64,000 bases of DNA, taken from NCBI GenBank assembly GCA_018647765.1, contig JABGSN010000058.1, positions 1 through 64,000 on the forward strand, in the 5' to 3' direction. Numbering within the stretch: position 1 is the first letter of the stretch; the number at the start of each line of letters is the position of its first letter. Both the position numbers and the translations under genes were made by a program. The DNA is from Oceanospirillaceae bacterium. Its GTDB lineage: Bacteria > Pseudomonadota > Gammaproteobacteria > Pseudomonadales > Balneatricaceae. This document shows, piece by piece, positions 58,733 to 63,541 of this stretch. The notes below the pieces were generated by a model. The model was not told the origin of the DNA. It did not search any database and worked only from the letters and a program-made list of their open reading frames with translations.

Positions 58733-59545
58733 ATGTACCTAGTTTCGTTTAACATTAATAGCATCCGCGCACGTATTGCGCAACTGAAAGCCATCAGTGA
58801 GCAATACTTACCCGCCGTTATAGGCCTGCAAGAAACTAAAGTACAAGACCTTGAGTTTCCCATCGCTCAGACGCAACGTTTGGGCTATGAAACCATATTT
58901 CATGGTCAAAAAGGCCAATATGGCGTTGCTCTGATGACCAACCTACCAATTTTGAAAACTATTAAAGGCCTGCCCGGTGACACCGAAGAATCGCAAAAAC
59001 GTTTAGTGGGTGCGCTATTGCAGCTACCCAATGGTGAAACCATGACAGTTCTTAATGGGTATTTCCCGCAAGGTGAAAACATTGACCATGCTACAAAATT
59101 CCCGGCTAAACGAGATTTTTATGCAGGCCTGACCCAATTACTAGCCGATGAATACCACAGCAGTGATCATGTTGTGGTCATGGGTGACATTAATATCGCT
59201 GCCAACGACATTGATATAGGCATAGGCGATGACAACCGTAAGCGCTGGTTAAAAACCGGCAAAGCCAGCTTTCAACCGGTTGAGCGTGAATGGCTAGAGC
59301 GGCTGATGCAGTTTGGTTTGACTGACAGTTATCGAGCGCTACACCCCAATGAACAACACTATTCATGGTTTGATTATCGTAGTAAAGGCTTCGATCGAGA
59401 ACCGCGTCGGGGGCTTAGAATTGATCAAATATTGCTCACCCAAAGCCTTCAAAACCAGGTTAGCGAAGCGGGAATTGATTATGTTATCCGAGCGATGGAA
59501 AAGCCGTCTGACCACTGCCCCATTTTTGTGCGCTTAGATCTATGA
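58733..59545 (+). CDS. xthA: Exodeoxyribonuclease III
   Basis: The 270-residue AP endonuclease and 3'-phosphatase acts in base excision repair. It has the metal-binding Glu in VIGLQETKVQDLEFP, GDINIAANDIDIG with active-site Asp/Asn, and the closing SDHCPIFVRLDL. ATG 58733 begins MYLVSFNINSIRAR. The in-frame upstream start at 58697 adds 12 non-family residues and is rejected. It is about 133 bases from gor, divergent. Confidence 0.95.
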   Translation: MYLVSFNINSIRARIAQLKAISEQYLPAVIGLQETKVQDLEFPIAQTQRLGYETIFHGQKGQYGVALMTNLPILKTIKGLPGDTEESQKRLVGALLQLPNGETMTVLNGYFPQGENIDHATKFPAKRDFYAGLTQLLADEYHSSDHVVVMGDINIAANDIDIGIGDDNRKRWLKTGKASFQPVEREWLERLMQFGLTDSYRALHPNEQHYSWFDYRSKGFDREPRRGLRIDQILLTQSLQNQVSEAGIDYVIRAMEKPSDHCPIFVRLDL

Positions 59546-59611
59546 CCAAGTGATATATAAATTACAAAGCATATGTTATTTGGTTATAATGAAGCATCTA
59601 ATATTTTAGAA

Positions 59612-59643
59612 TTAATTATTGTACCTATTAATTATTGTACCTA
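59612..59643. repeat. Perfect 16-bp tandem duplication upstream of the HlyU-like gene
   Basis: TTAATTATTGTACCTA occurs twice in immediate tandem (59612-59627 and 59628-59643). A partial third copy (TTAAT) follows. It ends 79 bases before the ArsR-family gene. It may be an operator array or a replication slippage product. Confidence 0.6.
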
Positions 59644-59722
59644 TTAATAAATAGTCTACAATTAACCAATCGTACACCCTAAGACTCAATAAGCACTAAT
59701 ATAAGTGCGGAGATAATCGCCC

Positions 59723-60043
59723 ATGGCAACCCAAACCCCAGCCCTAAATCAAGCGGCTGACGACCTAAAAAGCAACGCCAAAATAGCGGCCACCATGCTC
59801 AAAGCTATTGCTAATGAGAGTCGCCTGCTGATTTTGTGTAATTTGGATGGCACAGAGCTTTCTGTTACCGAACTCAATGACCACTTAGACCTCAGTCAGT
59901 CGGCTTTGTCGCAACACCTTGCGGTATTGCGTAAAGATGGTTTGGTGAAGACCCGCAGGGAATCACAAACCATCTATTACTCGCTGTCTGACGTACGGGC
60001 GTCTAAAGTCATTAACACCTTACACGAGCTGTACTGCTCGTAA
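59723..60043 (+). CDS. HlyU/SqrR-like ArsR-family regulator
   Basis: The 106-residue winged-helix repressor resembles Vibrio HlyU by memory: LLILCNLDGTELSVTELND, LDLSQSALSQHLAVLRKDGL, QTIYYSLSD and LHELYC. Two cysteines, Cys39 (in ILCNL) and Cys105 (second from the end), sit where HlyU and SqrR form a disulfide or polysulfide bridge. No metal-binding CxC of ArsR or CadC is present, so a thiol-based reactive-sulfur or redox sensor is more likely. Its target is not adjacent, since the downstream gene is on the opposite strand and abuts it. Confidence 0.85.
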   Translation: MATQTPALNQAADDLKSNAKIAATMLKAIANESRLLILCNLDGTELSVTELNDHLDLSQSALSQHLAVLRKDGLVKTRRESQTIYYSLSDVRASKVINTLHELYCS

Positions 60044-61423
60044 CTAAAGTTCAAATATCTTGCCCGGGTTCATAATGTTTTTTGGATCTAGGGCACGTTT
60101 GATTACGGCCATGGTCTGTACTGCTTTAGCGCCATGTTCTTCAATTAAATAATCCATTTTTCTAAGCCCGATACCATGCTCACCAGTACAGGTACCCTGT
60201 AATGCCAAGGCTAGCTGTACCAAGTGATGACTCAGTTCCTTAGCAGCCAACACCTGAGCTTGATTATCTGGGTAAAATGGAATTAGAAGGTGGAAGTTAC
60301 CATCGCCCACATGCCCTACTAGTGGACAATTAAAACCCAATTCCAAGGCTTTGGCCTCAGCGAGTTCAATGCAATCTGCCAGCTTAGAGATGGGTACACA
60401 GACATCAGTACTAATGACGCTGGCGCCAGGGTTAAGCGCCATGCCAGCAAAGTAGGCTTTATGCCGCGCCGTCCATAATTGGTTGCGTTGTTCCAAGGTT
60501 TCGGCCCAACGAAAGCCCTGGGCGCCATACTCTTGGGCCACCGACTCCACCAACTCAATTTGTTCATCAACACTGGCTTTAGAACCGTGGAATTCCATAA
60601 ACAAGGTCGGTTGAGCCGTAAAGTCTTGCAGTTTTGAATACTCAATACAGGCACCCATTTGACAACTGTTAAGCAACTCAATACGGGCCATTGGCACCGC
60701 TAACTGCATACATTCAATCACACACTGTGCAGCATCGTTTACTGTGGCAAAACCACACACGGCTGAGCGAATTTGTTCGGGCACTGGAAAGATGCGCAAC
60801 CGAAGCTCGGTAATGATGCCTAGTGTGCCTTCAGCGCCAACGTATAAATGGGTTAAATCATAGCCAGCAGCACTTTTTCTTGCGCGCCCGCCAGTTTCGA
60901 TAACATCACCATTAGGCGTGACCACAGTGAGCCCCAGTACTACTTCTTTCATGGTGCCATAGCGCACTGCATTGGTGCCAGATGCGCGAGTAGACGCCAT
61001 ACCACCTAAACTGGCATTGGCCCCAGGATCAAGGGGAAAAAACAAGCCACTGGTCTTGAGCTCGTAATTTAGTGCTTCTCGAGTCACACCGGCTTGTAGT
61101 TTGACGTCAAAATCTTCAACATTAATTTCTAACACTTGGTCCATGCCAGTCAAATCAATACTGACACCGCCATTAACGGGCACCAGATGCCCTTCGAGTG
61201 ACGTACCGGCGCCAAATGGGATCACCGGAATGCTGTATTCGCTACAAATGCCTACGGCCGTTGCTACGGCCTCTGTGGTGTCTAGCATTAGCACGGCTTC
61301 GGGCATAGCATCACTGATATAGCCCTCACCGGTACTGTGTTCTTGGCGCATGTTGGCATTGTCGCTATAACGATCACCGAACACAGCTTTTAGCGCTGTT
61401 AGACCTTGGTTTGATGTAGTCAT
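60044..61423 (-). CDS. FAD-linked 2-hydroxyacid oxidase (GlcD / D-lactate dehydrogenase-like)
   Basis: The 459-residue flavoprotein is of the PCMH-type (VAO) family. The FAD-binding domain (about 35-215) includes PVIPFGAGTSLEGHLVPVNG and LGGMASTRASGTNAVRYGTM, and the C-terminal cap has VGHVGDGNFHLLIPF with catalytic His and GTCTGEHGIGLRKMDYL. Family members oxidise D-lactate, glycolate or D-2-hydroxyglutarate. It follows the dioxygenase gene by 22 bases, so the two probably act in sequence. The exact substrate is open. Confidence 0.85.
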   Translation of the reverse strand: MTTSNQGLTALKAVFGDRYSDNANMRQEHSTGEGYISDAMPEAVLMLDTTEAVATAVGICSEYSIPVIPFGAGTSLEGHLVPVNGGVSIDLTGMDQVLEINVEDFDVKLQAGVTREALNYELKTSGLFFPLDPGANASLGGMASTRASGTNAVRYGTMKEVVLGLTVVTPNGDVIETGGRARKSAAGYDLTHLYVGAEGTLGIITELRLRIFPVPEQIRSAVCGFATVNDAAQCVIECMQLAVPMARIELLNSCQMGACIEYSKLQDFTAQPTLFMEFHGSKASVDEQIELVESVAQEYGAQGFRWAETLEQRNQLWTARHKAYFAGMALNPGASVISTDVCVPISKLADCIELAEAKALELGFNCPLVGHVGDGNFHLLIPFYPDNQAQVLAAKELSHHLVQLALALQGTCTGEHGIGLRKMDYLIEEHGAKAVQTMAVIKRALDPKNIMNPGKIFEL

Positions 61424-61445
61424 TAAGTCAATTCCCAGATTATTA

Positions 61446-62495
61446 TTAGTTTACGTCAGGGGTAGATTTGGCGATACCGCCGTCAGCACGATCACGGTTG
61501 ACAAAGTGCTGCATGTCATCTGGCACGACACTCAAGCCAGGCAGCTGCATCCATATACGTAATAGTAAACGGTACTTAGAAGGCTCGTCCCAGTCTTCAT
61601 AATCGGTGCGTGCGTGCATTAGAAAACGGTTGTTTACGAACTGCATATCACCAGGTTTTAATATGGTTTCTAAGTATAATTCAGGACGATGCCACAATAC
61701 ATCTTTAATTGCCGTCTGAGCGGTCACTTCAATATGGTCACTGGCCATACCATCACGCTCTTGGTAAAACTCACTAAAGCCTGGGATATAATGGGCCATA
61801 AATTCGCCTTCATCAGCAAACTTAAAAACCGGAATTTTATAAGGGGTATATAACTCAGTGTCACCGCGGTCAGGGGTAGTACGCATATAAGGGTAGCCCT
61901 GGTAAAAGGTTGACATTAGTTCAGGTTTTTCGGCCAATAAAACGTTGTGCACTGTTGCCGAACTCATAACCCGACTTAAGCCGCCCGTTTTGCCCTTTCT
62001 AATCGACATTAAGCCTACCAAATCCGCCGTTGGGTCGCGGTGCATAATAAATTCACCACCATTATGATAGGGGCGTCGATCTACCGGATCTTGCTTGTCA
62101 ATCACTTCACCAATGTAGTCGCCACGGTAGCTTTGCGACACGGGAATGCCTAAGTGAAGAGAAATGCCAAAGTAGGCCAACTTCACTTGGTCTAACGTGT
62201 AATTTGCCACTTCAAACCCTGATAATTTAGCCAATCCACGCCCATAACCCAGTACGTCTTGCATGGCTTCAGCGGTCGCACAAAACGAAGGCAATATAAA
62301 ATCTGCCTGTGTCAGTGTCGAGAACTCGATATCTCTGCCACTGAGCGCTTTTACCGCTACATCAAGTTCCTGTAAGGTTTGCTTAGACAGTTGAAACAAC
62401 CAGCTGGCGTCCGCTTCGATTTGTTTACGATCCCATACCGCTGGGCCGGTAATGGGTTGCATTTGCTGTCCTACACCTGCGAAGTCCTTAGCCAT
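61446..62495 (-). CDS. TauD/TfdA-family Fe(II)/2-oxoglutarate dioxygenase
   Basis: This protein (349 residues from the ATG at 62495) is a non-haem iron dioxygenase with a jelly-roll fold. The His-x-Asp iron pair is in EFIMHRDPTADLVGL (about residues 152-154). The distal His is in FVNNRFLMHARTDYE (about 294), and the oxoglutarate-binding Arg is probably in RLLLRIWMQLPG (KYR...R). The ATG at 62495 follows AGGTGG by 6 bases, and the GTG at 62504 is rejected. The substrate is unknown. It is followed by the FAD oxidase and shares a promoter region with the LysR gene. Confidence 0.85.
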   Translation of the reverse strand: MAKDFAGVGQQMQPITGPAVWDRKQIEADASWLFQLSKQTLQELDVAVKALSGRDIEFSTLTQADFILPSFCATAEAMQDVLGYGRGLAKLSGFEVANYTLDQVKLAYFGISLHLGIPVSQSYRGDYIGEVIDKQDPVDRRPYHNGGEFIMHRDPTADLVGLMSIRKGKTGGLSRVMSSATVHNVLLAEKPELMSTFYQGYPYMRTTPDRGDTELYTPYKIPVFKFADEGEFMAHYIPGFSEFYQERDGMASDHIEVTAQTAIKDVLWHRPELYLETILKPGDMQFVNNRFLMHARTDYEDWDEPSKYRLLLRIWMQLPGLSVVPDDMQHFVNRDRADGGIAKSTPDVN

Positions 62496-62545
62496 CAATT
62501 CCACCTGTCATTATTTGATATGGGTTTACTCTAGCGGTTTTTTTA

Positions 62546-62598
62546 TGATATAAAAAATACATAATAACTATGGTTAACCATATATATTTCTTATATCA
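62546..62598. promoter_or_regulatory. 53-bp near-perfect dyad between the dioxygenase and LysR genes
   Basis: The outer arms TGATATAAAAAATACATA (left) and the complement of the right arm TGATATAAGAAATATATA agree at 16 of 18 bases. At the centre is a 14-bp perfect palindrome TATGGTTAACCATA (62569-62582). The left half carries six extra bases relative to the right. It lies in the 116-base spacer of the divergent genes and is very likely the binding region of the LysR protein. Confidence 0.65.
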
Positions 62599-62611
62599 AG
62601 TAGTGCATAAA

Positions 62612-63541
62612 ATGAACCTCAAGACTTTAAAGTATTTCCTAGCCATCGCTGAAACGGGCAGCATGTCGGCAGCAGCACGTACATTATTTGTGGCGCAGCC
62701 TGCGCTAAGCCTTCAGGTTTCTAACTTGGAGGCCGAATTAGGCGTGTCTTTGTTTGTTCGTAGTGTAAAAGGTGTTACCTTGACCGGTGCAGGCACAAAG
62801 CTAATCGATCACGCCCGTGTCATTACCCGCCAAGTTGAAGCCGCTAAAGACCACGTTAGTTCAGACTCATTTTCGCCCCGTGGCGAAGTCCGTTTGGTGA
62901 TCGATGGCTCTAAAGCCTACACCCTACTGGCTCCATTATTACAACGTTGTGCAGCCCAGTATCCCAGTATTACCCTCAGTGTAACGGATGCCATGAGTAC
63001 CCATGCGGCCCAGACGTTGATGGAAGGTAAAGTCGATATGGCGCTTATCCCAGGAGCGGAAGACTTACTGTCTGTAGAGGTCACCCCTTTGTACCGAGAG
63101 CCTCTCCACCTTATCGGCAAACACCTAGATCAGTATGCGTTGGACGGTTGCATCCAATTTACTCAATTACAGAAATTGCCATTAGTGGCCCCCAGTAAAG
63201 GCTTTAATTTGCGCCATCATATCGACGAGGCCGCATTGCAGGCGCAGCTACCTTTGAATATTAAATACCAGCAAGATACAGGGCTTTCATTACGCTGTTT
63301 GGCTCATCATGGTATGGCTCACGCTATTTTGCCACTCGATGTCATGGCCGCAGAATTGCGTCTAGGGGAGCTAGAATCTGCAAGAATAATCAACCCACCC
63401 ATTCAGCGGGTGCATTCGCTTGTACAATTGTCGACCCAAGCGCCGTCCCACGCCATGCAGGCGGTGGCTTCGTTGCTCAGTTCTTTAATTGCCGATTTAT
63501 GCGCCCACGGCACTTTGGATGGTCAATGCTTAGCCCACTAA
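62612..63541 (+). CDS. LysR-family transcriptional regulator
   Basis: The 309-residue protein has an N-terminal helix-turn-helix (LKTLKYFLAIAETGSMSAAA, FVAQPALSLQVSNLEAELGV) and a C-terminal effector domain (RLVIDGSKAYTLLAPLLQRC and following). ATG 62612 gives the family start MNLKTLKYFL. The in-frame ATG at 62570 lies inside the central palindrome and is rejected. It diverges from the dioxygenase/FAD-oxidase operon, which is the expected target. The effector is unknown. Confidence 0.88.
   Translation: MNLKTLKYFLAIAETGSMSAAARTLFVAQPALSLQVSNLEAELGVSLFVRSVKGVTLTGAGTKLIDHARVITRQVEAAKDHVSSDSFSPRGEVRLVIDGSKAYTLLAPLLQRCAAQYPSITLSVTDAMSTHAAQTLMEGKVDMALIPGAEDLLSVEVTPLYREPLHLIGKHLDQYALDGCIQFTQLQKLPLVAPSKGFNLRHHIDEAALQAQLPLNIKYQQDTGLSLRCLAHHGMAHAILPLDVMAAELRLGELESARIINPPIQRVHSLVQLSTQAPSHAMQAVASLLSSLIADLCAHGTLDGQCLAH

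Follow-up and report, generated by a model that had tools for sequence, protein, structure and literature searches.

The question raised by the locus described here is whether a dioxygenase gene and an oxidase gene that lie side by side serve one pathway, in which a small acid is hydroxylated and then oxidized. The two genes occupy positions 60,044 to 62,495 of the window, viz. the whole stretch of 64,000 nucleotides that was analysed (positions 1 to 64,000 of contig JABGSN010000058.1, assembly GCA_018647765.1, from an Oceanospirillaceae bacterium of the family Balneatricaceae). The first-pass annotation of this DNA had described a TauD-type dioxygenase gene 22 bases before a 2-hydroxyacid oxidase gene, with a divergent LysR gene, and the open reading frames (ORFs) and Pfam matches agree with this description. 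The dioxygenase gene is referred to below as DI, the oxidase gene as OX and the genome of the window as G000; other genomes of the family carry G numbers and loci carry L numbers. The gene anatomy and the enzyme families, as established from the sequence, are as follows.

61446-62495, minus strand: DI, a TauD/TfdA-type Fe(II)/2-oxoglutarate dioxygenase (PF02668), FrbJ/TtnM-like, 349 amino acids (aa) from ATG
61424-61445, minus strand: the DI-to-OX junction, 22 bp
60044-61423, minus strand: OX, an FAD-dependent D-2-hydroxyacid dehydrogenase of the LDHD type, 459 aa
62553-62583, plus strand: putative operator AAAAATACATAATAACTATGGTTAACCATAT in the divergent DI/LysR promoter
62612-63541, plus strand: LysR-type regulator, divergent from DI, 309 aa from the ATG at 62612

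A GTG at 62504 is an alternative start for DI that would make it 3 aa longer. The longest ORF of LysR begins at 62570, inside the operator, and the start motif of its relatives matches the ATG at 62612 (MNLKTLKYF).

Our preferred reading, for which we judge the case somewhat better than even, is that DI and OX work together as a single catabolic unit under LysR control, by hydroxylation followed by oxidation. DI, using Fe(II), O2 and 2-oxoglutarate, would hydroxylate a small organic acid, probably no dicarboxylate, to a D-2-hydroxyacid, which OX, using FAD and a divalent metal, would convert to a 2-oxoacid, its electrons probably passing to the respiratory chain. LysR would sense the substrate, the hydroxyacid or the oxoacid, act at the operator at 62553-62583 and drive DI and OX as one transcript. 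The predicted sequence from acid to D-2-hydroxyacid to 2-oxoacid, by DI and then OX, is the simplest chemistry and the one that fits best; the C2 position of the hydroxylation, the D configuration, the identity of the substrate and the inducer are guesses on our part.

The evidence that carries this reading comes from the regulator and its putative binding site. Among 116 genomes of the window's family, relatives of LysR (E≤1e-70) are found as 19 copies in 18 genomes, and 17 of the 19 copies lie beside or in line with a gene for an FAD 2-hydroxyacid oxidase (14 with GlcDEF, 3 with the window type). A TauD gene adjoins 14 of the 19 copies, and 9 of the 14 GlcDEF-linked copies are also accompanied by a TauD gene of another type, which is 323 aa long, about 30% identical to DI and present in other genera of the family (reference locus L140). 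In five genomes (G004, G007, G010, G068, and G071) this second type of TauD is in line with glcD, glcE, glcF and a receptor gene of a tripartite ATP-independent periplasmic (TRAP) transporter, and the LysR divergent from TauD-GlcDEF is 53-55% identical to that of the window; four others (G070, G072, G073, and G077) have the same TauD, GlcDEF and receptor genes around LysR in another order. LysR-GlcDEF-DctP without TauD is found in G104, G106 and one locus of G069, LysR-GlcDEF in G002 and G008, and LysR and TauD without GlcDEF in G108 and the second G069 locus. The window LysR shares 53-56% identity with most of the GlcDEF/TauD-linked relatives and 46-50% with those of G069b, G002 and G008. The gene names were checked at L140, where the NCBIfam scores of GlcE and GlcF exceed the respective cut-offs and GlcD stays below both of its own (720/897 and 515/568 bits).

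The operator pattern was derived from 18 LysR promoter regions, that of the window among them. The sequence AAAAATACAT is common to all 18, in most cases with a conserved TAT and CCATAT behind it; the copy in the window and that in the GlcD promoter of G073 each differ from the shared sequence at 1 of 31 positions. The window site, AAAAATACATAATnnnTATnnnnnnCCATAT at 62553-62583, is an exact match to the pattern and the single site in G000 with ≤3 mismatches; it resembles the NAC site, ATA-N9-TAT. In 28 chosen genomes the pattern gave 29 matches with ≤3 mismatches, in exactly the 18 genomes that have LysR (E≤1e-70) and in 0 of the 10 that do not, and the reversed pattern gave 1 match in the same 28 genomes. 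Of these matches 24 lie at LysR, TauD or oxidase genes, including all 20 that have ≤2 mismatches. An even draw of 390 genomes of the order yielded 3 matches with ≤2 mismatches (G000, G068, and G071), all in genomes with LysR, and no match to the reversed control. The regulon is accordingly small, with 1-3 sites (≤2 mismatches) per genome having such a site.

Because 18 sites were used to build the pattern, the five sites with ≤2 mismatches outside this derivation set provide the fair test. Three of them lie 128-131 bp before 323-aa TauD genes in G104, G106 and G108, and no oxidase gene was seen next to these. In G104 and G106 the operator-bearing TauD is on another contig than LysR-GlcDEF (the contig of G104 stops 214 bp past TauD, which places the downstream neighbour outside view), and in G108 TauD adjoins LysR yet has a site of its own. 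A fourth site is located 74 bp before glcD of G010. The fifth, with one mismatch, precedes a third type of FAD oxidase gene in G108 (L186 6251-7732, contig G108:C4; 493 aa, 33% identical to OX; GlcE has no match in G108), and it is the weakest of the five because of its distance of 527 bp. The 24 sites fall in 22 loci and the motif is asymmetric: the gene met first in the direction pointing away from LysR is of the TauD, GlcD or OX type at 23 sites, and DctP (at 500 bp) at one, the LysR promoter of G108. Since LysR and its operator stay with the oxidase across three subfamilies and with a relocated TauD, a common pathway is the most economical reading, and on these comparisons it is very likely that dioxygenase and oxidase share both regulon and pathway. 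The functional link among dioxygenase, oxidase and LysR that the first-pass annotation had supposed is thus supported by a shared operator and regulon.

At thresholds of E≤1e-20 for DI and E≤1e-90 for OX, relatives of DI are found in 36 and relatives of OX in 42 of the 116 genomes. G097 (DI 92%, OX 94%; 92-94% over the proteins) and G096 (DI 83%, OX 85%; 81-85%) have DI, OX and a divergent LysR in the same order as the window. Because both enzymes retain their catalytic residues and the order is kept in G097 and G096, the DI-OX arrangement is, on sequence grounds, neither chance nor a fragment. The two genes are on the same strand with gaps of 22 bp in G000, 19 bp in G097 and 15 bp in G096, and therefore there is little space for a separate OX promoter in the gap; we infer that DI and OX are co-transcribed and that LysR binds the putative operator. 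G000, G096 and G097 form one clade (support 0.998 in a tree of 7 genomes and 4 proteins, without an outgroup and, for G089, without the GR protein), and because the DI carriers form one clade a single gain of DI-LysR would be simplest, with loss as the alternative. The genomes of the window's genus are mostly drafts (completeness 67-100%).

The sole Pfam match of DI at E≤0.001 is PF02668 (TauD, 64.8 bits, gathering cut-off 27), and no NCBIfam equivalog comes close to its cut-off. Enzymes of this family carry an HxD...H iron triad and a C-terminal arginine for 2-oxoglutarate; this motif is present in DI, and H152, D154, H294, R309 and R313 are invariant in an alignment with 31 relatives. The AlphaFold model of DI (mean pLDDT 86.7, pTM 0.87) is closest to FrbJ (5eqn; Z 29.9, root mean square deviation 2.1 over 267 residues) and TtnM (7n7v; Z 28.4, deviation 3.1 over 288 residues). 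Foldseek places the same two entries first, and by sequence they are also the closest solved structures (FrbJ 95.6 bits, TtnM 97.3 bits) at 22-25% identity; TtnM is, by its PDB title, of secondary metabolism. A grouping with enzymes for taurine or carnitine precursors, which had been named in advance as speaking against the pathway, is therefore not what was found, although the structure comparisons, in the rows shown, do not include TauD itself, which bears neither way on taurine. CsiD entries score Z of about 22-23, amid many other dioxygenases. In a TauD tree of 103 rows (midpoint root, without FrbJ and TtnM, some genes standing under two locus ids, for example L005/L170 and L002/L115), a window-type clade with support 0.999 unites the DI of the window, G096, G097, L005 (G102), L007 (G094) and L006, a further metagenome-assembled genome with 51% identity to DI; the deep branch joining L167 to this clade has support 0.33. 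At L005 (2237-5293) there is also a 1018-aa ORF which by eye has phosphotransferase-like, M23-peptidase-like and aminotransferase-like parts.

The second TauD of G000 (L115 3307-6927, G000:C60) is 37% identical to DI and 51% to the GlcDEF-linked type. It adjoins an 808-aa ORF, an apparent fusion whose first half matches the glycine betaine monooxygenase GbcA and whose second half matches the reductase GbcB (both below cut-off), and the pattern search gave no operator at this gene.

OX matches PF01565 (122.7 bits) and PF02913 (219.6 bits) and nothing else in Pfam. The annotation had called it GlcD-like: its place in this FAD oxidase family stands, but it is nearer to LDHD and falls below the cut-off of the GlcD model TIGR00387 (318 bits, cut-off 568). 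No GlcE or GlcF gene was found beside OX among the window ORFs, and the GlcDEF genes of G000 are located on contig C44. The nearest solved structure is mouse LDHD (PDB 8jdc), which OX matches over nearly its whole length (455 bits over OX residues 7-456), and the next kind of enzyme is LctD (244 bits). The activity that defines LDHD is an Mn-dependent oxidation of D-lactate and longer D-2-hydroxyacids. In its structural description, Arg347, His398, His405, Glu442 and His443 of mouse LDHD bind the metal and the glycolate moiety, and Val101, Trp351, Ser365 and Ile407 form a hydrophobic side-chain pocket, subsite B, which accounts for the enzyme's use of D-2-hydroxyacids whose side chains are hydrophobic and for its inactivity on D-malate, D-2-hydroxyglutarate and glycolate (PMC10589216). 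All five head residues are retained in OX (R320, H371, H378, E415, and H416), as they are in 24 of 24 aligned rows comprising 20 OX relatives including OX, 3 GlcDs and the third oxidase type. The pocket of OX (L76, Y324, S338, and L380) differs by the conservative changes V101L, W351Y and I407L, with S365 kept, and stays hydrophobic; OX further differs from the mouse enzyme in being bacterial and in lying in a dioxygenase operon. Because the head residues are kept and the pocket is hydrophobic, OX should accept D-2-hydroxyacids whose side chain is hydrophobic, among them D-lactate. The hydrophobic subsite B makes glutarate and other dicarboxylates unlikely for OX, and on this ground a dicarboxylate was dropped as first-choice substrate.

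Some further observations concern the oxidases and their surroundings. The OX pocket has K322 and L380 in the 3 DI carriers, and Q and I at these positions in 4 congeners without DI. In three other congeners (G094, G098, and G102) a 62% OX orthologue is in line with TRAP transporter genes (the large subunit was checked in G102 only), and these orthologues have K and L at positions 322 and 380, as in the DI carriers (L117-L124 compared). The best solved relatives of the one TRAP receptor tested, that of G098, include a ketoacid-binding protein (7ug8) and also 2hzk. The LysR-linked GlcDs have the motif HPS in 14 of 14 cases and the other GlcDs of these genomes HPL in 5 of 5, and this difference at a pocket residue, Ser as against Leu, is a hint that the LysR-linked enzymes may act on something else than plain glycolate. 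For the DctP receptor of the GlcDEF operons the nearest PDB entry is 4p56 (222 bits); literature searches turned up no text on its presumed mandelate ligand. In four genomes of one genus (L137, L139, L143, and L144) genes for betaine-aldehyde dehydrogenase, choline dehydrogenase and a choline ABC transporter follow LysR-GlcDEF-TauD (the names betB, betA and choline receptor were checked on L137 only), a possible hint of a choline-related substrate.

CsiD/GlaH and LhgO make up the glutarate pathway of E. coli and P. putida, in which the LhgO-type FAD enzyme acts on L-2-hydroxyglutarate. The window locus is like CsiD-LhgO in having a 2-oxoglutarate dioxygenase gene followed by a gene for an FAD 2-hydroxyacid enzyme, a dedicated regulator and the logic of hydroxylation before oxidation. 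It differs in its regulator (LysR here, the repressor CsiR there), in that OX is not an LhgO-type FAD enzyme (PF01565 and PF02913 only, LDHD-like), and in that CsiD yields the L isomer whereas D isomers with a hydrophobic side chain are the expected substrates of an LDHD-like OX. The dioxygenases differ as well: because DI matches PF02668 alone and CsiD belongs to PF08943 (PMC6265302), DI is by family assignment a distant cousin of CsiD and no member of the CsiD family. Membership in CsiD-LhgO is thereby rejected, in keeping with the earlier remark that the proteins are unrelated or distant. With the GlcDEF operons the locus shares an FAD 2-hydroxyacid oxidase, and the LysR-linked GlcDEF of the same family share its LysR type and operator; OX differs from GlcDEF in its subfamily and in having one subunit only.

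Three other explanations of the locus have to be weighed. The main rival is an indirect coupling, in which DI cleaves a C-S, C-P, C-N or C-O bond and a general enzyme turns the resulting aldehyde or alcohol into a 2-hydroxyacid (glycolate or D-lactate) for GlcDEF or OX. TauD and TfdA cleave bonds by way of hydroxylation, and DI is of their family, PF02668; its nearest structures include FrbJ, a phosphonate hydroxylase of secondary metabolism; the commonest partner oxidase, GlcDEF, is by family a glycolate oxidase; and in two relatives (L174 and L175 of G002 and G008, with LysR at 46%) GlcDEF is followed by a TSUP-like (sulfite exporter-type) permease gene, recognized by eye, and by a gene that resembles aldehyde dehydrogenases and has 31% identity to a BetB (betaine-aldehyde dehydrogenase). 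Set against this, no aldehyde dehydrogenase or sulfite gene was recognized beside DI-OX by Pfam and NCBIfam matches of the neighbouring proteins, and the inactivity on glycolate noted above for mouse LDHD speaks against glycolate as the substrate of OX. We consider this coupling unlikely on balance.

It is less probable still that LysR is a scavenging regulator for two nutrients that occur together, e.g., in phytoplankton exudates, with products that never meet. The best NCBIfam match of LysR is the nitrogen regulator NAC (169 bits, below the cut-off of 309), 5 of the 19 LysR copies lack an adjacent TauD and 2 of the 19 an adjacent oxidase, and the second type of TauD occurs without LysR in genus g9; but a tiny regulon of 1-3 sites retains both functions despite the changing type of oxidase, and TauD retains its operator on a separate contig in G104 and G106. 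Least probable of all, to the point of being barely credible, is that a LysR-dioxygenase module was inserted next to a resident D-lactate dehydrogenase gene with which it has no common role. Four congeners do have OX in this slot with neither DI nor LysR, and with the DI carriers in one clade (0.998) one event would suffice. Against it, G000 has 3 PF02913 matches (E≤1e-15) in an estimated 2,300 or so genes, which makes an insertion directly upstream of one and in line with it an event of roughly 1 in 1,000, and the same regulator type and operator are tied to other 2-hydroxyacid oxidases elsewhere; simple chance neighbourhood was rejected on these two grounds.

A number of observations weigh against the preferred reading of DI and OX as one hydroxylating and oxidizing unit. 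The conservation of the pair, which the first-pass annotation had made a test of its proposal, holds only in part, for the association of TauD, oxidase and LysR recurs, but DI adjoins OX in just 3 of the 116 genomes (G000, G097, and G096), all of one clade, and four congeners (G089, G090, G099, and G101; OX 78-85%) have an OX that occupies the same slot, flanked by ArsR and htpG, but lack DI and LysR, with 215-335 bp from the OX ORF to htpG. The DI orthologues of G102 and G094 (60-70%) lie apart from OX, beside genes that by eye are formate-dehydrogenase-like; these were rejected as partners of DI, being on the opposite strand and convergent with it in the two congeners. In a survey of 75 loci, two of which (L001 and L002) are from G000, no OX-like gene above 100 bits was found at 71 of the 73 genome_contigs loci of DI relatives, some of them on short contigs, and the two that have one, L003 and L004, are taken to be those of G097 and G096. 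No operator lies directly before OX, and 5 of the 29 operator matches, each having 3 mismatches, are situated elsewhere (near the 4 of these that were viewed, the reference proteins have no relative). FrbJ and TtnM, the closest characterized homologues, are not known to hydroxylate a simple acid at C2, and DI, at about 30% identity to the GlcDEF-linked TauD, may differ from it in substrate.

Five genomes of genus g9 have the second type of TauD but lack LysR, and 19 relatives from Bacillales (about 31% identical to DI, 57-60% to the GlcDEF-linked TauD type) have no match to OX, GlcD, GlcE, GlcF or DctP at E≤1e-8 at any of their 19 loci. Since this TauD type is found in g9 without LysR, and its Bacillales relatives are found without an oxidase, the oxidase is, as judged from these genomes, tied to the regulon and not to the second TauD type as such. 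The Bacillales loci (L008-L015, L017-L022, L025, L027, L030, L032, and L037) mostly show a recurrent cluster of an SDR-like gene, an MFS-like transporter and a LysR gene, and some of these clusters also have CoA-transferase-like subunits (all by eye).

The genes that surround the locus in the window are the following.

58733-59545: xthA, by NCBIfam match
59723-60043: ArsR-family gene, convergent with OX, the stops abutting
from 63596, beyond LysR: the end of a gene taken by eye for htpG

The best NCBIfam match of the ArsR-family gene is BigR (93 bits, below the cut-off of 155). No phosphonate pathway genes were found by Pfam and NCBIfam among the 5 proteins of the stretch 58733-63541, which was the stretch covered, and no gab genes were recognized near DI-OX. 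A scan for promoters and terminators gave counts within the range of shuffled sequence (3 against a shuffle mean of 4.4, and 5 against 3.4).

To our knowledge, hydroxylation by a 2-oxoglutarate dioxygenase followed by oxidation is established in bacterial catabolism for glutarate (CsiD-LhgO), and literature searches at overview level found no published report of the combination of dioxygenase, oxidase and LysR described here. If the preferred reading is correct, the locus would be a second case of this logic, with unrelated or distant enzymes, a LysR of its own and a mapped operator; it would give the FrbJ/TtnM branch of PF02668 a role in primary catabolism, and it would tie a TauD-type enzyme to the glycolate-oxidase operons of marine bacteria. 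More tentatively, as a possibility that we rate above the main rival and short of an even chance, the family as a whole may have an oxidative route not described before, whereby dioxygenases of the FrbJ/TtnM type make a D-2-hydroxyacid from an otherwise unreactive small acid for respiratory oxidation under one type of LysR and one operator. There would have been one exchange of the dioxygenase subfamily and at least two of the oxidase (GlcDEF, LDHD, and the third type of G108), while the regulator and the logic stayed. The 31-bp operator and the two or three genes that it marks would provide a concrete handle for finding the substrate.

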